Shown here: piece by piece, positions 7,769 through 20,302 of the stretch
Position numbering within the stretch: the first letter of the stretch is position 1
Layout of the letters: every line of letters starts with the position of its first letter
From: an uncultured Arenicella sp.
GTDB taxonomy: Bacteria; Pseudomonadota; Gammaproteobacteria; Arenicellales; Arenicellaceae
Direction of reading: 5' to 3'
Assembly: GCA_937922925.1 (NCBI GenBank)
Contig: CALAKU010000001.1
Span: 1-44,190 of the forward strand
Length of the DNA: 44,190 nucleotides
Position numbers and translations under genes: made by a program
Notes under the pieces: model-generated
Databases searched by the model: none
What the model saw: the letters and a program-made list of their open reading frames with translations, nothing else
Told to the model about the DNA's origin: nothing

Positions 7769-8851
7769 CTATAAAGCGTGTACCAGATTATTGATTCTTT
7801 TTAGGCGTGTTTGTGGCACCGTCAATGGCATCTCAAAGCCAGCCTGAGCAAGCATTCTATCGACCTCGCTTGAATCTTCTAATGACGTATAAAAATCAAA
7901 TGGCCGTTGCCATTTCCATAAACTGTGAGGAAGTACTTTACGACTAACCTCGACTCCTTCTATATGGATATGATGCTCACCTAATATGCGAGGCACAGTC
8001 GCGCCTTCGTCTTGCTGTGCGCGCCAATCGTCTAAACGTAGTTGCGTGTCTTTTATCACAGGTAATTGTTCACGCGACATCCGTAGTAACACGGGCAATA
8101 GCGTTTTTGGCACATGATCATCGCCGATAAGGTCACCATCAAAGGTTTCATCACTGATCATACGCTCTACCCATTTCGCCACATGTGGCGCTTTTTTGCG
8201 CATCAATTCACCGGGCGCAGGGTCGCGGTAAAGGTGAGCATAGAGAGGCCCAATTAGACCAAAATCACCGATGCTCGGGCGGGCACCCAATAAAAATTCA
8301 TGCTGCGCAAAATGTACATCAAGCTCACTCAACAGTGAGACATAAGAGTGCTCAATCGCGGGAATCGATTTTTCTGTAATACCAAGCCCGGGAACAAAGC
8401 CTCGAAATTTTGCGCCGAGCTTTTTACCTACATACCGTTTTAGAAATTTGGGGCCGTTGGGGAAAACCGCGCTGCCGAATTCTTGATAGATAAACGGTTG
8501 GTTCTGTTGTGGGAAGTTCCAGCGATAGTGCATGGCTGGGATGAGCAACCACTCATCGCCATAGACTTCAAGCAATTGAGAGACCAGACGTTGTTTTGGC
8601 GTGCTTGGATAAACCGACGGCGCGCCAGACTGCTTTTCTAGCTCGTCGATAATAACGCTGGTGTCTTGCAAGTATCGACCGTCTGCGGTTTTAACAACCG
8701 GGATAAATCGAACACCGGTATTCGGCACAATGATGTTTTTATAGACGTTGACCGAGGCTTTGATTTCCTCGAATTCAAAACCTTGCTTGCGCAAATACGA
8801 TCTCGCTTTACCGCTGTACAGCGACATTTCTGCGCCGTACAGCGTAATCAT
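7769..8851 (-). CDS. Glutathione S-transferase-like protein
   Basis: A 360-residue protein with an N-terminal thioredoxin-like GST domain ([20 protein letters not shown], about 1-80, with a cis-proline type RFIPVVK at about 48 and DTSVIIDEL at about 61) and a helical GST C-terminal domain (LGARPSIGDFGLIGPLYAHLYRDP, around 190-215). About 110 further residues follow, making it longer than a usual GST of 200-230. The start at 8851 is chosen because its ATG overlaps the thiolase stop (TAATG), indicating translational coupling; the upstream extension would lie inside thiolase. It is the last gene of the acyl-CoA dehydrogenase/thiolase operon, where a role in handling a reactive acyl intermediate is possible but unproven. 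Confidence 0.85.
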   Translation of the reverse strand: MITLYGAEMSLYSGKARSYLRKQGFEFEEIKASVNVYKNIIVPNTGVRFIPVVKTADGRYLQDTSVIIDELEKQSGAPSVYPSTPKQRLVSQLLEVYGDEWLLIPAMHYRWNFPQQNQPFIYQEFGSAVFPNGPKFLKRYVGKKLGAKFRGFVPGLGITEKSIPAIEHSYVSLLSELDVHFAQHEFLLGARPSIGDFGLIGPLYAHLYRDPAPGELMRKKAPHVAKWVERMISDETFDGDLIGDDHVPKTLLPVLLRMSREQLPVIKDTQLRLDDWRAQQDEGATVPRILGEHHIHIEGVEVSRKVLPHSLWKWQRPFDFYTSLEDSSEVDRMLAQAGFEMPLTVPQTRLKRINNLVHAL

Positions 8852-10029
8852 TACGCGACCTCGAATAGGCCAGCGGCGCCCATTCCACCGCCAACACACA
8901 TGGTGATAACCACGTATTTAACGCCTCGGCGTTTGCCCTCGATTAGGGCGTGGCCCACCATACGCGAACCACTCATGCCATAAGGATGGCCAACCGATAT
9001 AGCCCCGCCATTCACATTCAGTTTGTCGTTATCGATGCCGAGCTTGTCGCGACAGTAAAGTACTTGCACGGCGAAGGCTTCGTTTAATTCCCACAAACCA
9101 ATGTCATCTACACTTAGGCCATTGGCTTTTAACAACTTAGGCACTGCAAACACTGGGCCGATCCCCATCTCGTCAGGCTCGCAGCCTGCTACCGCCATGC
9201 CTCTGTAAATTCCGAGCGGCTCTAAGCCTTTTTGTTCAGCAAGTTTGGCATCCATCACGACTTGGGCGGAAGCGCCGTCGGAAAGCTGTGATGCGTTGCC
9301 GGCGGTAATCGTTCCGTCTTCAATTACGGTTTTCAAACCCGCCAAACCCTCGGCGGTGGTGGCGCGTAGACCTTCATCGGCGGAGACTGTCACCTCTTGG
9401 GTAGAGGTCTCGCCGGATTCTTTGTCGTAAATCAATTTGGTGGTGGTTACCGGCACCAGCTCGTCATTAAATCGCCCGGCTTCGTAACCCGCTGCCGTAC
9501 GAGTCTGAGATTGCAGTCCGTATGCGTCCATGGCATCACGAGAAATGTCGTATCGCTTAGCGACGACTTCGGCAGTTTGCAGCATGGGCATATAGATATG
9601 TGGATGCATGGCAACCAATTCTTTATCAACGGCTCGGTGCAAATTCATTTTGTCATTCTGCACCAAACTAATGCTGTCAATGCCGCCAGCAATCACAGTA
9701 CTCATGCCGTCGTGCATGATTTGTTTGGCCGCAGTTGCTACCGCCATTAAACCTGAGGAGCATTGACGGTCGATGGACATTCCTGACACGCTGGCTGGCA
9801 GACCAGCACGAAGGCCAATTTGGCGGGCGATATTTCCGCCTGTGGTGCCCTGCTGCAAGGCACAGCCCATGATCACATCATCAACTTGCGCGCCTTCGAT
9901 TCCCGCCCGTTCAACCGCTGCGCTTACGGCCGCTGCACCCAAACTTGGGCCACTTAGATCATTAAAAGCTCCGCGGTAGGCTTTGCCAATGGGAGTGCGG
10001 GCGGTAGAGACAATGACAGCGTCTTTCAT
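8851..10029 (-). CDS. Acetyl-CoA acyltransferase (thiolase)
   Basis: A 392-residue thiolase, the usual length. Catalytic residues are visible: nucleophile Cys90 in DRQCSSGL, His348 in [11 protein letters not shown], and Cys378 in [18 protein letters not shown] precedes them. The enzyme cleaves 3-ketoacyl-CoA with CoA, or condenses two acyl-CoAs. It sits 20 bases downstream of an acyl-CoA dehydrogenase and is coupled to the GST-like gene, so a degradative role in this operon is likely. It is distinct from FadA of the fadB operon, which would lie off the left edge. The substrate chain (fatty, branched, steroid side chain) cannot be told from sequence alone. Confidence 0.93.
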
Positions 10030-10049
10030 GGTTCACCTTTTCAATTAAA

Positions 10050-11189
10050 TTAGTTTTGATATGCAAGTTGGTTGAAGCGTTTTTGATAAAAACCTTGATC
10101 ACCAAACATAAGGTTGATCATCATCAATCGTCTTACGTAATGGCCAACGCTCATTTCTTCGGTCATGCCCATGCCACCGTGCAATTGAATGGCTTCGTCC
10201 CCAATGTGCTTGCCTGTTTTAGCAATCAACGTTCTTAGGGCTGCTAACATTTTTTGCGCATCGTGCGCAGATGTTTCTGGATCACTCAATTCACACAGCG
10301 TTCCCACCAGCATCGATTTAGCCTGTTCGAATGACATAAACATATCGACCATACGATGCTGCAAAGCCTGAAACGTGCTGATCGGCACACCAAATTGTTT
10401 ACGCGTTTTGGTGTACTCAACCGTTGCCCGATTTAGTACTTCCATAATACCGACGGCTTCGGCGCAAAGGGCAACTTGAGCACGATCCATGCACCGGGAC
10501 ACCAACCCATAAGCCTCACCTAGCTCACTAATAAGCACACCAGACGCATTATCAAAGCTCACATCGGCGACTTGTTGCCCATCCATTAGTGGGTAGCGAT
10601 TGATACTAACGCCAGCGGCATCAGCGTCGATCAAAAATAAACTCAGCCCAGCTTCGTCACGCTGCTCACCGCTGGTACGCGCCAAGACAATCAGCTTTTG
10701 TGCTGATGCGCCATTTAATACGACCGACTTGGTTCCGGTAATGGCATAGTGCTCGCCATCGGCTTTCGCCGTAGTCGCGATGTTACTCAAATCAAACCGT
10801 GCTTGGGCTTCGTATAAGGCTGCGCCGCCCATTAGGCTGCCGTCAATCACTTGTGGAATTAACTCGGCTTTTAATTGTGCATGATTACTTTGCTCGAGTA
10901 AGCCACCAAACATAACCATATTGGCGAAAACGGGCTCGACGACTAAGGCTCGGCCAAACTCTTCCATAATCGCCGCTAGATCGATGACTCCGCCACCGTA
11001 GCCGCCATTGTCTTCGGCAAAGGGTACCGACAACCAACCTAATTCAGCAAAAGTGGCGTAATGTTCAGCGCTGTAACCCACGTCATTATTCATGCTGGCG
11101 TTACGTTGATCGAAGCTGTAATTGTCTTGCGCCCAACGCTCAATGCTTTCTTTTAAGAGCTTTTGCTCTTCACTGTATTCAAAATTCAT
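10050..11189 (-). CDS. Acyl-CoA dehydrogenase, second subunit type
   Basis: A 379-residue flavoprotein of the acyl-CoA dehydrogenase family, with N-terminal helices (YSEEQKLLKESIERWAQDN), a beta domain, and the C-terminal domain including RKQFGVPISTFQALQHRMVD and QLHGGMGMTEEMSVGHYVRRL. The usual C-terminal active-site segment IYEGTNEIQR is replaced by NLMFGDQGFYQKRF, so the canonical catalytic glutamate is not at that position. Such proteins often pair with a second dehydrogenase encoded next door to form a mixed complex. It follows the other dehydrogenase by 18 bases and precedes thiolase by 20 bases. FAD would be the prosthetic group; the substrate is unknown. Confidence 0.92.
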   Translation of the reverse strand: MNFEYSEEQKLLKESIERWAQDNYSFDQRNASMNNDVGYSAEHYATFAELGWLSVPFAEDNGGYGGGVIDLAAIMEEFGRALVVEPVFANMVMFGGLLEQSNHAQLKAELIPQVIDGSLMGGAALYEAQARFDLSNIATTAKADGEHYAITGTKSVVLNGASAQKLIVLARTSGEQRDEAGLSLFLIDADAAGVSINRYPLMDGQQVADVSFDNASGVLISELGEAYGLVSRCMDRAQVALCAEAVGIMEVLNRATVEYTKTRKQFGVPISTFQALQHRMVDMFMSFEQAKSMLVGTLCELSDPETSAHDAQKMLAALRTLIAKTGKHIGDEAIQLHGGMGMTEEMSVGHYVRRLMMINLMFGDQGFYQKRFNQLAYQN

Positions 11190-11207
11190 TTGTAAACCTC
11201 TGGCTCT

Positions 11208-12383
11208 TTATAAGCCCAAAACGGCTTTAGCAATTACGTTGCGTTGCACTTCATTCGAGCCACCGTAGATGGTTGCAGCACGCCCGTACATGTACTCTTT
11301 GCGAGCGTAGGAGCCTTGCTGCTGTAGATCATTATTAAATTGATCAATTCGCAAGGAGCCAGAATAAGCTCCGATTACCTGCATGCGTAACTCTTGTAGA
11401 GCTTGCTGGATTTCGGTACCTTTGATTTTCAACAACGACGATTCAGGCCCCGGTGTTTCACCAGAAGACAGTTTCGCCAATACCCGAAGCTCCATAAACT
11501 CCAGGGCCATGAGCTCGATCTCGATATCAGAAAAGCGCTGCTGAATGAGCGGATCATCAAACAAAGTGCCATCGGCGTTGCTTTGCTGTTTAGCGATTTC
11601 TTTGATGTCCATCAACCAACGCTTGCTGTCGGCAACACCAGCAATTGATGTTCTCTCATGCGCTAGCAAGGCTTTGGCATAAGTCCAGCCTTGGTTTTCA
11701 ACCCCAATCAAATTTTCGACAGGCACTCGAACATTTTCGAACACCACCTCATTAAGACTATGGTGATTATCGATTGTGTGGATCGGGTTAACTTGAATCC
11801 CGTCTGAATTCATGTCGATCAATAAAAAGCTAATGCCTTGTTGGCGCTTTTCAAAGTTACCCGTGCGAACTAAGCAGAAAATCCAATCGGCGTGCTGTGC
11901 ATAGGTCGTCCAAATTTTTGCGCCGTTGACAATGTAATCGTCACCGTCACGTACCGCCTTAGTTTGCAGAGCCGCCAAATCGGAACCAGCGCCGGGCTCC
12001 GAATAACCTTGGCACCACCAGTCTTCGCTCTCTAGAATACGAGGAAGAAAGCGCTGCTGTTGCTCGTCGTTTCCAAAAGTAAAGATGACAGGGCCAACCA
12101 TGCGTAAGCCAAATGGCACAACATCGGGCGCGCCGGCTAAGCAGCGTTCGGATTCAAAAATGTATTTTTGTACTGGCGACCATCCGGTGCCACCAAATTT
12201 TTCTGGCCAATCGGGCGCGACCCAACCCTTTTTATGAAGAATTTTTTGCCATTTGACTGCGGGGGCTTTGGTTTCTTCTGATGTGGCAATAAGTTCTTTG
12301 ATTTCATCAGTGAACTCGCTGGCGAAAAACGCGCGAACTTCTTGTTGAAACTCCAGATCGGCTGAGGAAAATCGATTATCCAC
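11208..12383 (-). CDS. Acyl-CoA dehydrogenase, first subunit type
   Basis: A 391-residue acyl-CoA dehydrogenase with the characteristic flavin-site segment WWCQGYSEPGAGSDLAALQT, KIWTTYAQHADW in the beta domain and a C-terminal IYGGSNEVQRNVIAKAVLGL. The position of the catalytic glutamate of medium-chain enzymes (IYEGT) is Gly here, so if active it must use a base elsewhere, as isovaleryl-CoA dehydrogenase does. It begins with GTG; GGAG 6 bases upstream supports this start. First gene of the four-gene operon running to 7769. Together with the neighbouring paralogue it looks like a heteromeric dehydrogenase pair of the sort known from steroid side-chain degradation, but that substrate is only a guess. 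Confidence 0.92.
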   Translation of the reverse strand: MDNRFSSADLEFQQEVRAFFASEFTDEIKELIATSEETKAPAVKWQKILHKKGWVAPDWPEKFGGTGWSPVQKYIFESERCLAGAPDVVPFGLRMVGPVIFTFGNDEQQQRFLPRILESEDWWCQGYSEPGAGSDLAALQTKAVRDGDDYIVNGAKIWTTYAQHADWIFCLVRTGNFEKRQQGISFLLIDMNSDGIQVNPIHTIDNHHSLNEVVFENVRVPVENLIGVENQGWTYAKALLAHERTSIAGVADSKRWLMDIKEIAKQQSNADGTLFDDPLIQQRFSDIEIELMALEFMELRVLAKLSSGETPGPESSLLKIKGTEIQQALQELRMQVIGAYSGSLRIDQFNNDLQQQGSYARKEYMYGRAATIYGGSNEVQRNVIAKAVLGL

Positions 12384-12654: not shown

Positions 12655-13503
12655 CTAGTCTGGTAGCAAGCGAGTCCCAAATGCGGATTGATTTTGGGCT
12701 AAATCCAAGAGCGCGCCTTTCTTTGCAGCATTGCAGATCACAATCTGATCAACGCCTTGCTCGAGTAAGGCAAAAGACTCTCGCAATTTAGGAATCATTC
12801 CATCCTTGATGATATTCAAAGCAATGAGTTGCTCCGCTCGCTTGGGCGTCAGTTTTTCAAAGCGGCTTTGCTGGTCTTTGATGTCGGCGAACACCGCGCC
12901 CACCTCAGTCGATAACACCAACATATCGGCTTGCATTGCACTGGCAATTGCGGCGACAGTGGTATCGGCATTGATATTAAAAACACGCCCCTTCTTGCTG
13001 ACACCCAGAGACGCAATGACCGGAACAAAACCGTCCTCGAGCAACAAGTTCAATAGCCGTGTATTGATTTTTTTGACATCCCCTACTTCACCAAAGTCGA
13101 CCCTACCACGGCCTTCGATATGCATTTTAGCCCGTTTGCGAGCCTGAATTAGCTTTGCCGAAGCACCATGCAAACCCAGTGCGGGCAGGCCTTGGGCAAC
13201 ACAGGCTGACACCAAGTCGACATTTACTTCGCCGCAAAGGGCTTGCTTCACAACCCGCAAATCATCGCGGCTGGTGACTCGCCTGCCATCTATTTTATGA
13301 GGCTTTAGGCCATGAACTTGCTGCAAGGTATTGAGCTGCGGTCCGCCGCCATGCAACACCACCACCGACCACCCAATATCCACCAGTGCTGCAACATTCT
13401 TTGCAAAACCTTTGCGATCTTTGGGGTTGAGCAGCAAGTCGCCGCCGACCTTAATCACCGCCAAAGGTTTTTTATTACTCGCCTTCTGAGTGGATGCTTG
13501 CAT
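12655..13503 (-). CDS. argB: Acetylglutamate kinase ArgB (or N-succinylglutamate kinase)
   Basis: A 282-residue amino-acid kinase. It shows the nucleotide-binding IKVGGDLL (about 17-24), HGGGPQLNT (about 51-59), the acyl-glutamate-binding region DGRRVTSRDDL with the conserved arginine, NINADTTVAAIA and KDGMIPKL, all as in ArgB. ArgB normally phosphorylates N-acetylglutamate in arginine synthesis. Here it is the last gene of an operon with three arginine-degrading ast genes and argC, 69 bases after argC. That context raises the alternative that it works on N-succinylglutamate, possibly in the reverse, ATP-forming direction. The family call is firm; the physiological role is open. Confidence 0.88.
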   Translation of the reverse strand: MQASTQKASNKKPLAVIKVGGDLLLNPKDRKGFAKNVAALVDIGWSVVVLHGGGPQLNTLQQVHGLKPHKIDGRRVTSRDDLRVVKQALCGEVNVDLVSACVAQGLPALGLHGASAKLIQARKRAKMHIEGRGRVDFGEVGDVKKINTRLLNLLLEDGFVPVIASLGVSKKGRVFNINADTTVAAIASAMQADMLVLSTEVGAVFADIKDQQSRFEKLTPKRAEQLIALNIIKDGMIPKLRESFALLEQGVDQIVICNAAKKGALLDLAQNQSAFGTRLLPD

Positions 13504-13572
13504 CTTTGGTTTACCTGCCTATTTTAAGTTCAACCGAGATTTTAGGTTCGAAGGAATCAGCTAATTTCAGAT

Positions 13573-14640
13573 TTAAGGCCACATGCCCGGCTGGCCAACT
13601 CGATAGGCATTGTGATGATCGGTCATCAAATTAAAATTTTGCAAAGCTTGCCCTGCCCCGCCTTTAATTAGATTGTCCAAAGCAGCCGTTAAACAAAGGC
13701 TGCGTTTGCCGCTGACTGGATCGGTTTTCAAATCAATGCCAAGCTCGATACGCAAAGTGTTCTTGACCGAAACCACCTCAGGAGCCATACCCTTGGGCAT
13801 CACCGATATTAATGGGAAGCCTTGAAAAAATTGTTCATAGTTTGTGCGAATGTCATCTTCACTAAGACCTTCAGGCGCGTCTAATTGTGCGATCGACATC
13901 ATGCCTCGACTGAGCGGCGCCGACACCGGCACAAAATCAAGGTTAACCTTGGATGCGCCTGCATTTTGCAGCGTCTGAATAATCTCAGGCTCATGCTGAT
14001 GCTGATACACCTTGTAGGTCTTAATATTATTACTGCGGATGGTGTGATGATTACCCACTTGAGGATGCACACCAGACCCAGATGAACCAGTCAATGCCAC
14101 TAGCCGAATCGTTTGGCCATCCAAGCCACCAAGTTTGGCGAGCGGTAGTAGCGAACTAGCAATGCAAGTAGCGAAACAACCTGGGTTGGCGACATATTGA
14201 GCATCCTTAATTTGGTCTTCAAACAATTCAGGCATACCGTAGACAAAGGTGCCTAAGCGCTCGGGGCATGGATGTTCAGGCGCGTAAACGCGCTGATAGT
14301 CTGCCAAGTTCTGCAAACGAAAATCGCCCGACAAATCAATTATGCGCACATCTTTATCAAACAAATGGGTCGCTACTTTGGCTGTGGTGATATGTGGCAT
14401 GGCCAAGAACACGATGTCGGCCCCTTCAACACAGTCGGTTGGCGGAATATCTTCAAAAACCAAATCGCTTAAGCCATAGAAACTGCGATGAACTTGACCG
14501 ATGTTCTGGCCGATATGATCCTTAGAGGACACGCGCAATAAATTGACATCGTCACGGCTCAGTAAATTGCGCAGCAATTCAGCGGCTAAAAAGCCTGAAC
14601 CACCAATGATAGATACATTTGTTATTTTGCTTGAGGACAT
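13573..14640 (-). CDS. argC: N-acetyl-gamma-glutamyl-phosphate reductase ArgC
   Basis: A 355-residue NADP-dependent reductase of the aspartate semialdehyde dehydrogenase-like fold. The N-terminal nucleotide-binding glycine motif IIGGSGFLAAELLR (11-24), DLSGDFRL (about 102-109), the catalytic VANPGCFAT with Cys155, and a histidine-rich segment YQHQHEPEI identify ArgC. It interconverts N-acyl-glutamyl phosphate and N-acyl-glutamate semialdehyde. The gene follows astE by 21 bases. In this operon the reverse direction on the N-succinyl compound would supply the step normally done by AstD, an aldehyde dehydrogenase not found here. Whether it acts on acetyl or succinyl substrates cannot be told from sequence by eye. 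Confidence 0.9.
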   Translation of the reverse strand: MSSSKITNVSIIGGSGFLAAELLRNLLSRDDVNLLRVSSKDHIGQNIGQVHRSFYGLSDLVFEDIPPTDCVEGADIVFLAMPHITTAKVATHLFDKDVRIIDLSGDFRLQNLADYQRVYAPEHPCPERLGTFVYGMPELFEDQIKDAQYVANPGCFATCIASSLLPLAKLGGLDGQTIRLVALTGSSGSGVHPQVGNHHTIRSNNIKTYKVYQHQHEPEIIQTLQNAGASKVNLDFVPVSAPLSRGMMSIAQLDAPEGLSEDDIRTNYEQFFQGFPLISVMPKGMAPEVVSVKNTLRIELGIDLKTDPVSGKRSLCLTAALDNLIKGGAGQALQNFNLMTDHHNAYRVGQPGMWP

Positions 14641-14661
14641 ACGAAATAGTTTGTTTAAAAT

Positions 14662-15687
14662 TTATGTTTGAGCGCGCTCGCCCAATTTAGTCGGTGCGAC
14701 GATGAGCATCGCGCGTTGACCTATGGGTACGTTTTGAATAGGAAACACAAACCGTTCATTATCGATTTGCGTGATGTACTGATAAGTCTCGTCACTGGCC
14801 AGCAATGTGCCAGCTGGGTACGGGCTGAAATTATGCGCATCGTCTGGAATGTGTAGTTTCAAACCGTCAGAGCGTTTGATGACTTCTTCGACGACTTTAA
14901 AAACCTGTAAAGACTCTGGTTTACTTTCAAATCGTTGATGGCCTTCAATCAAGCCTCGCAACGACTCTACTAATTTTAAATACTTGCTTAAGTCGTTCTG
15001 CCCGAACGGCTTAACCCGCCCAAGCTCAACGGTAAAACTATGGGCCTGAAGATGCCGGCTAGTAAAATATGAGAAGGTGCCCGCGGGCTGGTTCGACAGC
15101 AACACCGCATCGATCCCGCATTGTTCTAAGAACGCTAATTGCGATTGGCTCCAAGATCGTTGATGTAGAAATGGGTAAACCGCGAACTTTTCGATTTTTG
15201 AACGGCGAATCGCAGTGTGCAAATCGTAGTGCAACCTAAGCGGTTTGTTAGCTGAGAGAGAGCCTGCACTTGAGAGAGAGCCCGAAGTTTTTGCATAAAA
15301 TCGTTCCACCAAACCTTGCAACTCAATCGCTCTTTGATGCTCTTTGCTTGAACCTGTTTGCGAAGCCGACGCCGAAAATAAACGGTTTAAATTATGCTCG
15401 ACAAATCGTTGCTGTTCTCTGGCCGCTGCCGGGTTACCAATAATCAACAGCAGTGGGTTTCGTGGCTCAAGTTTGCCTTTAACAATCTCATCAACCAGGC
15501 CATCAAGGAGCTCCATTGGCGCGGTCTCGTTACCATGAATGCCGCTGGAAAGAACAATGCTCTGGCCGCTCGATTGCTTTGGCAACACTTCGATCACCCC
15601 GGCAGCTAAGGCCGTCGCGCGCGATCCTAAATAGTTTTGCAGTGCGTCGGTCGAACTGCCAGCTAAGGTATGTTTTAGAAAACTCAT
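14662..15687 (-). CDS. astE: Succinylglutamate desuccinylase
   Basis: A 341-residue zinc amidohydrolase of the AstE/aspartoacylase family. Zinc ligands His51 and Glu54 lie in SSGIHGNETAP, the third in LHYDLHTAIR, and the catalytic glutamate in FTVELGRVKPFG. It hydrolyses N-succinylglutamate to succinate and glutamate, the final step of the arginine succinyltransferase pathway. The start was set at the ATG at 15687 (MSFLKHTL), 13 bases after astB; a longer frame from 15735 would overlap astB by 35 bases and has no better ribosome site. The start is the least certain part of this entry. Confidence 0.9.
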   Translation of the reverse strand: MSFLKHTLAGSSTDALQNYLGSRATALAAGVIEVLPKQSSGQSIVLSSGIHGNETAPMELLDGLVDEIVKGKLEPRNPLLLIIGNPAAAREQQRFVEHNLNRLFSASASQTGSSKEHQRAIELQGLVERFYAKTSGSLSSAGSLSANKPLRLHYDLHTAIRRSKIEKFAVYPFLHQRSWSQSQLAFLEQCGIDAVLLSNQPAGTFSYFTSRHLQAHSFTVELGRVKPFGQNDLSKYLKLVESLRGLIEGHQRFESKPESLQVFKVVEEVIKRSDGLKLHIPDDAHNFSPYPAGTLLASDETYQYITQIDNERFVFPIQNVPIGQRAMLIVAPTKLGERAQT

Positions 15688-15700
15688 TGAGACGCAATGC

Positions 15701-17071
15701 CTATCGCTGAAACTCGTAAAACGAGCCGAGTTCAAAGAGTTGGGTTAACTCATCAAGCGCGGTAAAGCATTCTCGCGCAAGTTGGGGGTCGGCTAAATCT
15801 TCGGCGATTAATTGGTCGCGATAGTGGCGCTCAACCCATGCATTCAATTCTTTAAGCCGGGAATTAGTCAGCATAAATTGAGGGTTGACTGCCGCAAGCT
15901 CTTCTTCATTAAGCGCAACTCTAAGCCTTAAACAGGCAGGGCCACCTCCGTTTTGCATGCTTTGCCGCACATCAACGAATTCGATATTACCGATCGAACG
16001 TGAAGTGTCTGCCAGCTCATTCAAATAGGCAGCAACCGACCGATTATCTCTGCTCTCAGTGGGTAAGACTAAGGTCATTTTTTCTTGACCGGGCAATTGA
16101 ACTAACTGAGAGTTAAACAAGTAGGAGCTAACCGCGTCGCTCAGGGATACGGCGCTGGTGGGCACTTCAATAATGTCGAGCTCGGTATCAGGCCTGATTG
16201 CTCGAAACTTGGTCTGCAATTCGGTTTTAAGCTCAGCTTGATCAACAAAAGCCTGCTCGTGAGTAAAAAAGGTCGAGAGGTTGGAAACCGAAACCACGTC
16301 ATTATGAAATGCCCCGGCATCAATAATCTCTGGGTTTTGCTGAGCAAACACATGCGCACCCAAATCAAGCTTGTGCAGGCGTGCAATCGACTGTGATGCC
16401 TCAAAACTCTGTCGGCTTGGAAATCGTTGGGAGCGCTGCGGGTTCGCTCGAAAAGAATAACGCCCGTAAACAAAAAGTTGCAGCCCAGCTTGATCATACG
16501 CTGCAGTAAAGCGGTTGTGATTGGCCGCACCTTCGTCAGCAAAGTGAGCGCCACTCGGCAATGCATCGTGGTGACTAAAATGCTCACCGTCGAAGACTTT
16601 TTTAAGCAATCTACTTGTTGATGAATGCTCAATTGATCGGTGACACATGCTGGACAAATTGGCCGCAGTAAAATGCACTTTCGAGTCGCTCGCGTCAGCA
16701 CTGGGGCAGACCGTTGCGGCGTTGGCCGACCACATGCTCGACGCCGAGTAACATTGGGCCAATAACTCAGGGGCGGCATTGGAAACTTGCTTGATGATCT
16801 GCTCATCAGAGCCATTGAAGCCTAAAGCTCGTAGCGTTGGCAGATGAGGTCTTTGTTGCGGTAACAGAATGCCCTGCTCTAAGCCTAAGCCCCGCATAAA
16901 CTGCATCTTTTGCAAACCTTGCAGCGCAGCGAGCTTGGGGTATGCGATTTTGAGCGCATTGGTTTTAGAGGCGACGTTACCGTGAGACAAACCACCGTAG
17001 TTGTGAGTTGGCCCGATAAGCCCATCAAAGTTAACTTCGACGCCTTGGTTGTTGCCTAAGGCCGTTGTCAT
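15701..17071 (-). CDS. astB: N-succinylarginine dihydrolase
   Basis: A 456-residue enzyme, matching E. coli AstB in length and in motifs throughout. It converts N-succinylarginine to N-succinylornithine, ammonia and CO2. Visible landmarks are VNFDGLIGPTHNYGGLS at the N-terminus, HFADEGAANHNR with the catalytic glutamate, AGAFHNDVVSV with the catalytic histidine, and GGGPACLRLRV with the nucleophile at about Cys380. Its ATG overlaps the astA stop by four bases (ATGA), and GGAG within the end of astA acts as ribosome site. Together with astA and astE it shows that this operon degrades arginine by the ammonia-producing succinyltransferase route. Confidence 0.96.
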   Translation of the reverse strand: MTTALGNNQGVEVNFDGLIGPTHNYGGLSHGNVASKTNALKIAYPKLAALQGLQKMQFMRGLGLEQGILLPQQRPHLPTLRALGFNGSDEQIIKQVSNAAPELLAQCYSASSMWSANAATVCPSADASDSKVHFTAANLSSMCHRSIEHSSTSRLLKKVFDGEHFSHHDALPSGAHFADEGAANHNRFTAAYDQAGLQLFVYGRYSFRANPQRSQRFPSRQSFEASQSIARLHKLDLGAHVFAQQNPEIIDAGAFHNDVVSVSNLSTFFTHEQAFVDQAELKTELQTKFRAIRPDTELDIIEVPTSAVSLSDAVSSYLFNSQLVQLPGQEKMTLVLPTESRDNRSVAAYLNELADTSRSIGNIEFVDVRQSMQNGGGPACLRLRVALNEEELAAVNPQFMLTNSRLKELNAWVERHYRDQLIAEDLADPQLARECFTALDELTQLFELGSFYEFQR

Positions 17072-18123
17072 GATCTAACTCCTAAAATGCGCACGCTGCT
17101 TTGAGAATTAATGTTGAGGGCCTGGGCCACATCATTGTTGAGTAAAAGCACGTCACCCTCAAAATACGCTGCAATACTAGCCACTCGAAAATCCATGGCA
17201 TTTTGGTTCGCTACAAATAGTTCGACTGGCGTTTCATTTTCGGCCGCTTTTAGTTTTAGGTCTTGCTCGTCGATCACCTGTACTTTAACTACCTTGCTCT
17301 CACGAATAGACTTCATGTCGTCGATGCGTGCATCAATGCTGGGAGATCCATCAAAAATATCCACATGGCCATTCCAACGGAAGCCTTCTGCTTTGAGCAT
17401 TTCAAACGCCGGCTTACTCTTTTCGTTGGGTTGGCCAATTACGGCCTGAGCTGACTCAGGTAACAAGTTTACGTACAGAGGATGTTTAGGCATAAGATCA
17501 GCGATAAATTGATTGCCGTTGGTTGCGCCATACAAATCCGCGTCGGCGAACTCCATCTCAAAAAAATGCTGGCCAACGGCTTGCCAAAAAGGTGAACGAC
17601 CGTGTTCATCGTAGTAACCTCGAATATCGGCCATGACGCTTTCGGGAAATCGCTCTCTAAATTGAGCCATAAAAAGGTAGCGACTGCGGGCTAGAAATTT
17701 GCCGTTGCCGTTTTTACGAAAATCTGGATGCAGATACAAGGAGGCGACTTCGGCAAAACCCTCAAAGTGGTTTGAGAGATTCAGCGTTTCAACCGATACT
17801 TTTTTGTTCAACTCTTTGCAGCTATGCGTGACCTTATTGAGTTTGTATGAGTAAAACTGCGCGTCTGCACCAAGGCAAGCAATGATCGCGGCAGTCCCAA
17901 TAAGTTGGCCAGTGCTGCTGTCCTCCATCACCAAAAAATACAATTGGTCACGTGGTGTGACATCACCACTCTCTATGGAGGTAATGGCGTGATCAATTTT
18001 GCGCGCCAATACGTCGACGTCTGGCGGCAAGGTGGTCATCCCAGGGTATGCCAACTTCGCCAACTCCAGAACGCCATCCAAGTCGTGTTTGCGAATGTTT
18101 CGAACAATAATCATGTCGAGCAT
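17068..18123 (-). CDS. astA: Arginine N-succinyltransferase
   Basis: A 351-residue acyltransferase that succinylates arginine from succinyl-CoA, the committing step of the AST pathway. Strong matches to E. coli AstA include the segments ASLYLHPDFRKNGNGKFLAR, MADIRGYYDEHGRSPFWQ, ADLMPKHPLYVNLLP, and HVDIFDGSPSIDARID. The single gene suggests a homomeric enzyme, not the two-subunit AruF/AruG of Pseudomonas. The start at 18123 (MLDMIIVRN) has a second possible ATG at 18114, and neither has a strong Shine-Dalgarno. It is the first gene of astABE-argCB. A 29-bp dyad lies about 90 bases upstream. Confidence 0.95.
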   Translation of the reverse strand: MLDMIIVRNIRKHDLDGVLELAKLAYPGMTTLPPDVDVLARKIDHAITSIESGDVTPRDQLYFLVMEDSSTGQLIGTAAIIACLGADAQFYSYKLNKVTHSCKELNKKVSVETLNLSNHFEGFAEVASLYLHPDFRKNGNGKFLARSRYLFMAQFRERFPESVMADIRGYYDEHGRSPFWQAVGQHFFEMEFADADLYGATNGNQFIADLMPKHPLYVNLLPESAQAVIGQPNEKSKPAFEMLKAEGFRWNGHVDIFDGSPSIDARIDDMKSIRESKVVKVQVIDEQDLKLKAAENETPVELFVANQNAMDFRVASIAAYFEGDVLLLNNDVAQALNINSQSSVRILGVRS

Positions 18124-18267: not shown

Positions 18268-18762
18268 CTAGAGTTTTAGCAAAGTATCCATAGGAAAACC
18301 AGAAAAGTCTTTGGTGCGCTCTAAGATGATTAAAGTGTTCATTTTTCCAATTCCGATATTCGAGGTAATCATCTCGTCGCTAAGACGGTTATACGACTTT
18401 ACGTCGGCGCAAACAAACTTTAAGAGATAGTCGTAGGCTCCGCTGATCTTATAGCTGTCAGTGACTTCTGCCACTTTTGCTACAGCGGTATCGAACCGTA
18501 AGAAATCATCCGGCGTATGATTTTCAAGAGTGACCTCAGCAAAGGCCTCGACATGCGGTGCCAGCTTTTCTAAATCGATCTCAGTGATATAGCGCTTTAA
18601 CACGCCCTCGGTCTCAAGACGCTTAACCCGGCTCAAACAAGCGCTGGCCGACAAATGAACTTGTTCCGCCAATTGCTGATTCGTTATCCGACCATTGGTT
18701 TGTAAAATCTTAAGAATCTTGAGATCGATTTTATTGATCTTGGTGTACTCACTCATCTTCAA
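18268..18762 (-). CDS. Lrp/AsnC family transcriptional regulator
   Basis: A 164-residue regulator with an N-terminal helix-turn-helix (about 10-60, LDLKILKILQTNGR-type start KIDLKILKIL and NQQLAEQVHLSASACLSRVKRLE) and a C-terminal ligand-binding RAM domain (EVTDSYKISGAYDYLLKFVC). Such proteins sense amino acids and often control adjacent catabolic genes. Here it lies directly upstream of astABE-argCB on the same strand and is divergent from the class III aminotransferase at 18932, so control of both by arginine or a derivative is the likely role. Length is typical of the family. Confidence 0.93.
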   Translation of the reverse strand: MKMSEYTKINKIDLKILKILQTNGRITNQQLAEQVHLSASACLSRVKRLETEGVLKRYITEIDLEKLAPHVEAFAEVTLENHTPDDFLRFDTAVAKVAEVTDSYKISGAYDYLLKFVCADVKSYNRLSDEMITSNIGIGKMNTLIILERTKDFSGFPMDTLLKL

Positions 18763-18931: not shown

Positions 18932-20302
18932 ATGACTCACACTGATCTAAGCAGACTGGACGCAGACACCATTTTGCATCCCTCGACCAATGCCGACGAA
19001 TTCGCCAAGCATGGGTCGCGCATAATGCAAAAAGGCGAAGGCATTTACCTTGAAGACACCAGTGGCCATCGCCTGATTGATGCAGTCGCTGGGCTTTGGT
19101 GCGTTAACGTTGGTTATGGCCGCCAAGAAATCGCCGATGCTATGAGTCAAGCCGCAAGCAAAATGGGTTACTACCATACGTTTACAGGCATGTCGAACGT
19201 GCCCCAAGTGGAATTAGCGGAACGCTTGATCAAGCTTGCGCCGGGCCGACTTAGTAAAGTTTTCTTTGCTAGTGGCGGTTCAGACGGCAACGATTCGCTG
19301 ATGAAAATCGTTTGGTACTACCACAATTTGATCGGCAAACCAGAGAAACGCAAAATCATTTCTCGCTGGCAGTCTTACCATGGTACGTCTATCGCTACCG
19401 CCAGCCTAACGGGTTTGCCCTCGTTTCATAAAGATTTCAATCTACCGATTGCCAATGTTCTGCACACCGAATCGCCTGACTATTTTCGCCATGCCCATGA
19501 CGGTGAAAGCGAATTGGCGTTTTCTGCGCGCCGGGCCAACGAGCTTGAAACACTGATCGACAAAGAAGGTGCCGATACCATCGGCGCATTTATTGCGGAA
19601 CCTGTGTTGGGCGCAGGCGGCGTTGTGCCGCCACCAGAAGGTTATTTTGAAGCTATCCAAAAGGTGCTAAAAAAGCACAACATCTTGTTTATTGCCGACG
19701 AAGTGGTGTGTGGATTCGGTCGCTTAGGTAAATGGTTTGGGTCTCAAGTTTATGATCTTGACCCCGACATGATGACAACCGCGAAAGCAATCACCAGTGG
19801 TTACTTTCCTTTTTCTGCCTCGTTTATCACTGACGAGATTTGGCAAGTGCTTCGCGAGGGTTCGCGCAAACATGGCAGTTTCGCTCATGGGTACACGTAC
19901 GCCGGTCATCCGATTGGGGCAGCGACAGCCATGGCAAACTTAGACATTATCGAAAACGAAAATTTGGTGTCGCGTGCGGCCGACGTAGGCGCGTATTTTC
20001 AAGCGCAACTAAAACAGCGTTTCGCCAATGACGACTTTGTCGCTGAGATACGTGGCCACGGCATGATCGCCGCCGTGCAACTGGTTAAAGATAAGAGTTC
20101 AAAAACCTTGTTTGATCCGGGCGTGAAAATCGCACCAAAAGTGACCACCGAATGTTACAACAACGGGCTCATCGCGAGACCATTACCGTCTATTGATTCG
20201 GTCGCGTTTTCGCCTCCCTTGATCACTACTAAAGCTCAGATTGATGACATCGTCGATCGTTTTGAAACATCGGTGCGATCTATTATTCCAAGTTACCTCT
20301 GA
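18932..20302 (+). CDS. Class III aminotransferase, polyamine/omega-amino acid:pyruvate type
   Basis: A 456-residue PLP-dependent aminotransferase. The PLP lysine is Lys285 in TTAKAITSGYFP; other marks are VFFASGGSDGNDSLMK, SRWQSYHGTSIATASLTG, FIAEPVLGAGGVVPPPEGYF and FIADEVVCGFGRLGKWFG. The overall sequence resembles the SpuC/beta-alanine:pyruvate branch more than AstC/ArgD. It could therefore use putrescine or another omega-amine with pyruvate, but might also serve as the missing succinylornithine transaminase of the ast pathway. The start was placed at the ATG at 18932 rather than an open extension to 18794, as the extension lacks family similarity. It is divergent from the Lrp-like gene, which probably regulates it. 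Confidence 0.9.
   Translation: MTHTDLSRLDADTILHPSTNADEFAKHGSRIMQKGEGIYLEDTSGHRLIDAVAGLWCVNVGYGRQEIADAMSQAASKMGYYHTFTGMSNVPQVELAERLIKLAPGRLSKVFFASGGSDGNDSLMKIVWYYHNLIGKPEKRKIISRWQSYHGTSIATASLTGLPSFHKDFNLPIANVLHTESPDYFRHAHDGESELAFSARRANELETLIDKEGADTIGAFIAEPVLGAGGVVPPPEGYFEAIQKVLKKHNILFIADEVVCGFGRLGKWFGSQVYDLDPDMMTTAKAITSGYFPFSASFITDEIWQVLREGSRKHGSFAHGYTYAGHPIGAATAMANLDIIENENLVSRAADVGAYFQAQLKQRFANDDFVAEIRGHGMIAAVQLVKDKSSKTLFDPGVKIAPKVTTECYNNGLIARPLPSIDSVAFSPPLITTKAQIDDIVDRFETSVRSIIPSYL

Follow-up and report, generated by a model that had tools for sequence, protein, structure and literature searches.

An arginine succinyltransferase operon whose paralogous ArgC and ArgB probably replace AstD with recovery of ATP

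How does an arginine succinyltransferase (AST) operon that carries no astD convert N-succinylglutamate semialdehyde to N-succinylglutamate, and what are argC and argB doing at its end? The question is raised by positions 12655-18123, minus strand, of the window (the whole 44,190-nucleotide stretch analysed here), where an Arenicella-like gammaproteobacterial MAG, 87.6% complete, encodes astA-astB-astE-argC-argB. We refer to the ArgC and ArgB of this operon as ArgC2 and ArgB2, as opposed to the biosynthetic copies. Our analysis suggests that the pair is probably a phosphorylating, ATP-recovering replacement for AstD acting on N-succinyl intermediates, a reading in which we infer the reaction direction, the substrate and the ATP gain.

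The operon and its relation to AstD

ORFs, translations and HMMs confirmed the five packed minus-strand genes that an earlier note on this DNA had described, with one overlap of 4 bases and gaps of 13, 21 and 69 bases (Table 1). The canonical AST components AstA, AstB and AstE are all present by HMM, with AstA passing its subfamily model while scoring 363.5 bits on the equivalog model TIGR03244, below the cut-off of 391. We placed the astE start at the ATG at 15687; a longer ORF from a TTG reaches 15735, and the ATG is backed by relatives whose alignments start at about residue 17.

Table 1. Genes of the operon and its immediate neighbours, with the models on which each assignment rests
Feature	Positions	Strand	Assignment	Model match
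argB2	12655..13503	-	paralogous acylglutamate kinase	TIGR00761, 202 bits
argC2	13573..14640	-	paralogous acyl-glutamyl-phosphate reductase	TIGR01850, 305 bits
astE	14662..15687	-	N-succinylglutamate desuccinylase, last step	TIGR03242, 353 bits (cut-off 306)
astB	15701..17071	-	N-succinylarginine dihydrolase, step 2	TIGR03241, 640 bits (cut-off 538)
astA	17068..18123	-	arginine N-succinyltransferase, step 1	PF04958, 398 bits; TIGR03243, 382 bits (cut-off 284)
Lrp/AsnC-family gene	18268..18762	-	regulator adjoining the operon	PF13412, PF01037
AAT3	18932..20302	+	class III aminotransferase, candidate AstC substitute	PF00202, 311 bits

Of the 13 Arenicella genomes that bear ArgC2, 11 have the five genes in this order, unbroken on a single contig; in the remaining two (G008 and G017) contig ends interrupt the run. 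This conservation rules out chance adjacency of the ast and arg genes. The neighbouring genes also recur. A gene 72-83% identical to the Lrp gene lies near the operon at 9 of the 13 loci read in the other 12 Arenicella genomes with ArgC2, two of the four loci without it being short contigs. AAT3, read from the ATG at 18932, fell short of the ArgD subfamily model (219 bits, cut-off 410). At five loci (L114, L115, L117, L118 and L119) a gene 69-71% identical to it opens the astA-astB-astE-argC2-argB2 run on the same strand. AstC is not within the operon; elsewhere in the MAG one ArgD-family member scored above cut-off, at 454 bits.

No match to the astD model was reported in the contig that holds the window, and none in the MAG was above cut-off: seven matches of the aldehyde dehydrogenase (ALDH) family were obtained, the best at 252 bits against an astD cut-off of 579. 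A gene missing from a MAG may reflect incompleteness. AstA was found in 21 of 61 relatives, 13 of which have ArgC2/ArgB2 and no AstD above cut-off, while the other eight have AstD and no ArgC2. In seven of these eight AstD scored 657-776 bits; in the eighth, G046, it lies in two pieces, below the cut-off. Completeness is at least 95% in nine of the 13 argC2 genomes, and ArgC2/ArgB2 and AstA occur together in 13 of the 18 genomes of the genus. The adjacency of astE, argC and argB recurs in relatives and goes with the absence of astD, a correlation that the earlier note had proposed to check.

A further 19 genomes with AstA and ArgC2, reached via ArgC2, include SAR92-like, Kangiella, Pleionea and Aliikangiella members; 16 are without AstD and three have both. 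AstD did not score above cut-off in two Pleionea genomes, two Aliikangiella genomes or strain IMCC1989, and in both Aliikangiella genomes, as in G080, the genes astB-astA and astC are grouped with no astD between them. In Kangiella and Aliikangiella no adjoining astE is seen. The 22-genome set from which these 19 come was picked by ArgC2, which biases the frequency with which AstD is missing from it. Over all 32 genomes with AstA and ArgC2, three also have AstD (Colwellia RSH04, G074 and G076), which rules out strict mutual exclusion. Arenicella genomes of the astD type carry a different ast operon, whose AstA is only 35-39% identical to that of the window, and a simple in-place swap of astD is therefore ruled out in this genus. 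A class-wide scan of 369 genomes found ArgC2 (above 700 bits) only in its four Arenicella genomes, with the next ArgC at 247 bits; evidently it sampled no other ArgC2-bearing group, and it says little on how common ArgC2 is.

These distributions bear on a first alternative, that the place of AstD is taken by some other, unrecognised aldehyde dehydrogenase, with ArgC2 and ArgB2 handling N-succinyl or N-acyl glutamate compounds in a different way. Generic ALDHs could perform the AstD step, seven family matches are at hand in the MAG, and the three genomes with both systems would fit. We nevertheless regard this explanation as unlikely in view of the 13/8 pattern among relatives and the conserved operon order. 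ArgC and ArgB would also supply exactly the missing chemistry, and the annotated genes of the operon region include none that would provide N-succinylglutamate for a forward reaction.

ArgC2 and ArgB2 as paralogues

The earlier note had named, as evidence against its own reading, a normal astD elsewhere in a genome whose only argB and argC are those of the operon. We found the reverse, since no AstD is above cut-off and the MAG has a separate canonical argC and argB. All 13 ArgC2-bearing Arenicella genomes have canonical ArgB and 12 of them have canonical ArgC, so the operon genes are extra copies and not the sole biosynthetic ones.

Phylogenies against canonical ArgB and ArgC placed the operon copies in clades of their own, apart from the biosynthetic copies of the same genomes in both trees, with support of 100/100 for the ArgC2 clade. 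Part of the 80 loci of the ArgC2 search was collected for the trees. Of 111 sequences collected, 102 entered the ArgC tree: nine that repeated ArgC2 or myxobacterial loci already included were omitted, along with any exact duplicates and rows shorter than 250 aa. For ArgB, the tree and the counts rest on 112 distinct rows free of X, with L119 dropped. No canonical ORF was obtained for L021, L024 and L187. ArgC2 keeps Cys155, His214 and His216 in 12/12 rows, and its loop signature is matched by every row of the 29-row clade except L119. The catalytic residues of ArgB2 are likewise kept.

Two features set ArgB2 apart. The equivalent of E. coli Leu65, which is flanked by G64 and R66, described as substrate residues, is Arg74 in the window's protein and Arg in 34/34 ArgB2 rows. 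Bacteroidota ArgB, on the biosynthetic branch, has H, L or Q at this position (9/9 rows) despite the known N-succinyl route of that group, so succinyl substrates do not require Arg65. The Arg65 rows do not form one clade in the ArgB tree (two changes, with the remote rows L143, L148 and L155 outside or beside), and the marker may therefore be an ancestral trait and not a mark of AstD-replacing function. The second feature concerns the C-terminal arginine-site motif of arginine-inhibited ArgB, described in PMC3236213 as E-L-F-(T/S)-x-x-G-x-G-T. Counted with a loosened pattern, this motif occurs in 31/31 Arenicellales biosynthetic ArgB (ArgB1) and in 0/34 ArgB2, an absence that a catabolic enzyme would need.

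The canonical copies, the distinct clades and the missing arginine-inhibition motif together make it very unlikely that ArgC2 and ArgB2 are an ordinary biosynthetic N-acetylglutamate kinase and reductase lying in the operon by happenstance, an alternative the earlier note had kept. Both proteins do pass the biosynthetic equivalog cut-offs (304.7 against 233.6 bits for ArgC, 202.3 against 151.3 for ArgB), and their remote homologues sit in arginine-synthesis clusters. Against this, Kangiella G067 (completeness not known) has the pair although neither an ornithine nor an acylornithine carbamoyltransferase was found and no further ArgC match exceeded 36 bits, and the biosynthetic cluster of Kangiella G071 is separate from the pair. 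In G063, however, canonical ArgC is present and no carbamoyltransferase was found, an example of how absence from a MAG may reflect incompleteness.

It is also very unlikely that astE-argC2-argB2 serves a separate pathway (for example, N-acylornithine catabolism) and is merely co-regulated with astAB: the unit does occur without nearby astA or astB at L127, L130 and L134, and at the myxobacterial loci L137-L142 an M20 deacylase accompanies ArgC2-like and ArgB genes, but the unit lies in or beside ast genes in Arenicella, SAR92-like loci, Kangiella and Pleionea, and AstA is present in 19 of the 22 ArgC2 genomes tested, one of the misses (G072) having a contig cut within astB. The two such myxobacterial genomes tested (G081 and G082) are without AstA, which indicates that the ArgC2 family is not tied solely to the AST pathway.

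The proposed route and its N-succinyl substrate

The astD pattern, the extra copies and the residue signatures lend support to the bypass of AstD put forward in the earlier note, in which direction, substrate and ATP gain are still matters of interpretation. AstA and AstB would form N-succinylornithine, and an aminotransferase, presumably the adjacent AAT3 or the ArgD encoded elsewhere, would convert this to N-succinylglutamate semialdehyde. Instead of the non-phosphorylating AstD, ArgC2 would then oxidise the semialdehyde, using phosphate and NAD(P)+, to N-succinylglutamyl phosphate, from which ArgB2 would pass the phosphate to ADP, yielding ATP and N-succinylglutamate. AstE would finally release glutamate and succinate. 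One ATP would be regained per arginine degraded, approximately the energy spent as succinyl-CoA in the first step. Reaction direction is not readable from sequence.

For the N-succinyl part of this reading, carbamoyltransferase residues beside remote homologues provide independent, sequence-based support. A residue triplet that distinguishes substrate types in these enzymes is described in PMC4581275. Three remote pairs share the ArgC2 loop signature and adjoin carbamoyltransferases with the N-succinylornithine triplet A/S-P-E (S-P-E, A-P-E and A-P-E), in remote clusters rather than in the window operon. In the ArgC tree the remote rows attach on the ArgC2 side, in part with weak support (83/44, 90/55 and 98/85). 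Within the 26 ArgC2-bearing genomes, the six carbamoyltransferases above the acylornithine cut-off are all E-N-K, the N-acetyl type. It seems reasonably likely that an N-succinyl-specific ArgC/ArgB family was recruited in marine Gammaproteobacteria, where it would run in reverse, freed from arginine inhibition, to recover ATP in place of AstD, and that related pairs serve a little-known N-succinyl arginine synthesis in Sumerlaeota, Peribacteria and Woesearchaeota.

Literature searches for an ATP-recovering AST variant, judged by title and the start of the abstract and with the largest result sets sampled in part, found no paper describing one among those listed. If correct, the proposal would add to a textbook catabolic pathway a form that conserves energy, built by reversing two biosynthetic enzymes, and would explain the absent AstD of marine groups such as Arenicella, SAR92-like bacteria, Kangiella, Pleionea and Aliikangiella. 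It also carries a warning for annotation, as the genes will be called argB and argC and biosynthesis may be mispredicted; ArgB Arg65, the ArgC loop signature and the lost arginine site offer candidate markers for the N-succinyl branch.

Comparison with known systems

The AST pathway is encoded by astCADBE in E. coli and by the aru genes in Pseudomonas. The operon described here shares AstA, AstB and AstE with it, and the intermediates on either side of the variant step are the same. It differs in having no AstD, the oxidation being proposed to proceed via two enzymes and an acyl phosphate, and in having no AstC within the operon, which a different class III aminotransferase adjoins. ArgC2 and ArgB2 resemble biosynthetic ArgC and ArgB in family models, catalytic residues and acyl-phosphate chemistry. 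Unlike those enzymes, they are paralogous to the genome's own copies and fall in separate clades, ArgB2 has Arg at E. coli position 65 and no arginine-inhibition motif, and the direction (reverse) and substrate (N-succinyl) are both proposed to differ.

LysW-dependent LysY/LysZ is another ArgC/ArgB-like pair. ArgC2 and ArgB2 lie on other branches of both trees, and five LysZ-like rows, named by resemblance, form a separate ArgB branch with Ser at position 65; trees and residue together rule out a LysW-type identity. None of the seven operon-region genes that were scanned is LysX-like. A LysX-like-looking cluster was noticed in other families of the order (L057 and L058).

B. fragilis ArgB is described as an N-succinylglutamate kinase (PMC7311316). 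The use of the ArgB/ArgC family on N-succinyl compounds, proposed here, would be common to both systems, but the Bacteroides route is biosynthetic and the Bacteroidota rows lie outside the ArgC2 and ArgB2 clades.

In glycolysis, GAPDH with phosphoglycerate kinase (PGK) is an ATP-yielding two-enzyme route, and the non-phosphorylating GAPN oxidises the aldehyde with one enzyme. ArgC2/ArgB2 as against AstD would represent the same choice, made with a different substrate and different enzyme families, and would be its parallel in amino acid catabolism.

The ast operon of the window, its genome and its genus

The earlier note had described a five-gene operon joining three arginine succinyltransferase (AST) pathway genes to argC and argB. 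This arrangement, close spacings included, was borne out by open reading frames, translations and Pfam and NCBIfam models, and a search with the astD model reported no match in the contig carrying the window. We consider it quite probable that the best explanation of the operon-type ArgC and ArgB (ArgC2, ArgB2) is a phosphorylating, ATP-recovering replacement for AstD, the succinylglutamate-semialdehyde dehydrogenase of the standard pathway, acting on N-succinyl intermediates; we infer its direction, substrate and ATP gain. Downstream of the operon lie two acyl-CoA dehydrogenase genes and a thiolase gene (8851-12383); nine of the 13 Arenicella loci read likewise have the dehydrogenase pair downstream of argB2.

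Operon genes and flanking genes in the window
Feature	Position	Strand	Basis or setting
astA	17068-18123	minus	ORF, Pfam/NCBIfam models
astB	15701-17071	minus	ORF, Pfam/NCBIfam models
astE	14662-15687	minus	ORF, Pfam/NCBIfam models
argC (argC2)	13573-14640	minus	ORF, Pfam/NCBIfam models
argB (argB2)	12655-13503	minus	ORF, Pfam/NCBIfam models
Lrp/AsnC regulator	18268-18762		flanking the operon
Class III aminotransferase (AAT3)	18932-20302		flanking, divergent from the operon

Second, canonical copies of both genes (ArgC1, ArgB1) were found genome-wide in the host MAG (G000; 2.69 Mb, 104 contigs, 87.6% complete), scoring 424 bits for argC against 304 for the window copy and 249 for argB against 202. 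No astD over the cut-off was found in this genome, the best of seven aldehyde dehydrogenase matches reaching 252 bits against a cut-off of 579; in seven relatives AstD over the cut-off scores 657-776 bits. That a generic aldehyde dehydrogenase carries out the AstD step is the closest alternative to the phosphorylating ArgC2-ArgB2 route. One ArgD-family aminotransferase over its cut-off lies elsewhere in G000. A class III aminotransferase unlike ArgD or AstC, the pathway's transaminase, adjoins or heads argC2-type operons (in the window and in L114, L115 and L117-L119), and is a candidate AstC replacement.

In an alignment-based scan of named genomes, the nearest relatives of the operon ArgC were from Arenicella and gammaproteobacterial MAGs, the five best matches being 77-80% identical and near-full-length. 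ArgC2 occurs in 13 of the 18 searched genomes of the genus (G000, G002, G003, G005-G008, G011-G015, G017), always with AstA and a second ArgB (178-207 bits); gene order is unbroken on one contig in 11, with contig ends interrupting it in G008 and G017. Identity to the window copies is 73-80% for ArgC2 and 47-55% for AstE (near-full-length matches). All 13 have a canonical ArgB and 12 a canonical ArgC (two contig-end pieces in G003), which was not found in G006 (82% complete). G010 and G016 (85 and 81% complete) showed no AstA, ArgC2 or AstD over the cut-off. G001, G004 and G009 carry another operon, Lrp / astC - M20 peptidase - astA - astD - astB, whose AstA is only 35-39% identical to that of the window. 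The M20-family gene lies between astC and astA at all three loci (L095-L097) and astE was not seen in the stretches read there, where AstE itself may have been replaced.

Distribution of ArgC2 and AstD

AstA was found in 21 of the 61 relatives first surveyed. Thirteen of these have ArgC2 without AstD over the cut-off and eight have AstD without ArgC2, none having both or neither; arithmetic alone puts the chance of this split at 1 in 203,490, a figure left uncorrected for the relatedness of the genomes and hence no proper probability. AstD in one of the eight (G046) consists of two adjacent pieces, each below the cut-off; the matches (contig C146, 18396-19807) lie in different frames, which reflects either a genuine interruption of the gene or faulty assembly.

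A second set of 22 genomes (20 gammaproteobacterial, 2 myxobacterial) was picked for ArgC2-like genes and is biased by that selection. AstA was found in 19 of them, the exceptions being both myxobacteria and G072, in which a contig end interrupts astB. Three genomes, Colwellia RSH04 (G069) and the Kangiellaceae MAGs G074 and G076, have AstD over the cut-off, and both routes may coexist in them. Over both sets, the second being selection-biased, AstD is missing from 29 of the 32 genomes that have AstA together with ArgC2, and the other three carry it too, so that ArgC2 and AstD do not strictly exclude each other. Another ArgC above 150 bits is present in 19 of the 22; that of G074 is a 94-bit contig-end fragment, and G067 and G076 have, besides ArgC2, only ArgC matches below 65 bits.

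The astE-argC-argB adjacency recurs beyond Arenicella. Five loci (L114, L115, L117-L119) from Porticoccaceae, Cellvibrionales and unclassified gammaproteobacterial MAGs, which we take to be SAR92-like, have AAT3-astA-astB-astE-argC2-argB2 on one strand; Pleionea has astE-argC2-argB2 flanked by astB and astA, and astC farther out; Colwellia RSH04 has astC-astA-astD-astE-argC2-argB2; and the two AstD-bearing Kangiellaceae MAGs have astC-astA-astD at one site and astE-argC2-argB2 at another. Kangiella shows astC on the minus strand, then astA-astB-argC2-argB2. Two Aliikangiella genomes and G080, all without astD over the cut-off, have astB-astA and astC together, with astD absent there and argC2-argB2 elsewhere.

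Phylogeny, residues and remote relatives

In maximum-likelihood trees, for which long remote rows are a caveat, ArgC2 (29 rows, support 100/100) and ArgB2 (34 rows, 100/99) each form a clade separate from the same genomes' biosynthetic copies. Myxobacterial rows are nearest to both; G014 ArgB2 groups apart from other Arenicella ArgB2. A biosynthetic role for argC2-argB2 is spoken against by the separate biosynthetic copies or cluster, by the distinct clades and by their presence in Kangiella G067, a genome in which no carbamoyltransferase for arginine synthesis was found. A search of G067 with the model for acylornithine carbamoyltransferase, which in other genomes catches lower-scoring carbamoyltransferases as well, gives only a 47-bit match (presumably aspartate-type), although this genome holds argC2-argB2; G063 and G076 give none. 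MAG gaps can mimic such absence, as the canonical ArgC present in G063 shows. In Kangiella G071 a cluster of N-acetylornithine-type carbamoyltransferase, argG-like, M20, NAGS/kinase fusion, argC and argH-like genes stands apart from argC2-argB2, argG and argH being labelled by resemblance.

The myxobacterial loci (L137-L142) pair an ArgC2-like gene and argB with an M20 deacylase; their ArgBs have Arg at position 65 and lack the arginine-site motif (0/6). AstA is missing from both myxobacterial genomes tested, G081 and G082, the latter encoding an N-acetyl-type carbamoyltransferase of its own. In other families of the order, L057 (7712-12154) and L058 (6112-10731) hold LysX-like ATP-grasp, argC, glutamine amidotransferase, argB-like and argD-like genes, by resemblance a LysW-type pathway.

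ArgB2 retains E. coli K8, G11, G64, R66, N158, D162 and K217 in 34/34 rows and G44 in 33/34. Leu65 of the E. coli enzyme lies between substrate-binding G64 and R66, according to PMC3236213. This position is Arg in all 34 ArgB2, all six myxobacterial and all three remote rows; no Arg stands there in the 64 other ArgB and five LysZ-like rows. Because the ArgB tree needs two changes, not one, to account for Arg65, the residue may be ancestral to this section of the family; in ArgB2 it could bind the succinyl carboxylate. B. fragilis ArgB is an N-succinylglutamate kinase (PMC7311316), and none of nine Bacteroidota ArgB rows has Arg65. The arginine-inhibition motif, in loosened form, is present in 31/31 Arenicellales ArgB1, 0/34 ArgB2 and two of three remote biosynthetic ArgBs, the third (L148) nearly matching. 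Before the first strand, 27 of 35 ArgB2 ORFs have only 5-17 residues and seven have more (some probably over-called starts; one not measured), against at least 27 in the ArgB1 measured. Freedom from arginine inhibition is what a catabolic enzyme working while arginine is plentiful would need.

Remote ArgC-ArgB pairs adjoin an acylornithine carbamoyltransferase in Peribacteria (L148), Woesearchaeota (L155) and Sumerlaeota (L143). The first two sit in arginine-synthesis clusters with argG-, argD- and argH-like genes; at L143 nothing was seen but argC, the carbamoyltransferase, argB and an upstream gene without a family assignment. All three ArgCs carry the ArgC2 loop signature TGSSGSG...HHxxR, found in 28/29 ArgC2-clade and 6/6 myxobacterial rows and in 0/38 canonical rows and 0/26 other relatives collected. 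They are about equally similar to ArgC2 and ArgC1 (35-42%) and join the ArgC2 side with support 98/85, 90/55 and 83/44. This weaker placement, and the two changes that Arg65 needs, slightly lower the probability given to the ATP-recovering explanation. N-acetylornithine carbamoyltransferases have Glu92, Asn185 and Lys302, and the N-succinylornithine type A/S/P/V/Q, P and V/I/E, by the rule in PMC4581275. By this rule the remote enzymes read A-P-E (L143), S-P-E (L148) and A-P-E (L155), and those over the acylornithine cut-off in six of 26 ArgC2-bearing genomes (G071, G073, G074, G077, G080, G082) all read E-N-K; L311 and L312, two of the lower-scoring sequences inspected, belong to a different type. 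The remote carbamoyltransferases thus read as N-succinyl type, and the L148 cluster also has an AstE-family deacylase, which ties the ArgC2-related lineage to N-succinyl chemistry in its biosynthetic members.

Directly upstream of argC in these clusters lies a family (L155, 3610-4641; L143, 6829-8001; L148, 6887-7996) 39-44% identical across three phyla. It matched no Pfam or NCBIfam family over cut-off, with weak P-loop matches for L155 alone, and a PDB search with the L155 protein, the sole copy used, gave no match. It may be the missing N-succinylglutamate synthase.

The proposed route and known systems

No description of argC/argB in place of astD was found among the papers listed by searches of an open-access library; the terms Kangiella, succinylglutam and argB are absent from the GapMind carbon-source paper (PMC9007349). 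The proposed replacement would swap one irreversible aldehyde oxidation, the AstD step, for a GAPDH-like phosphorolytic oxidation followed by a kinase step that would recover an ATP. ArgC is reversible in assays, and the pair of reactions has its thermodynamic parallel in GAPDH and PGK.
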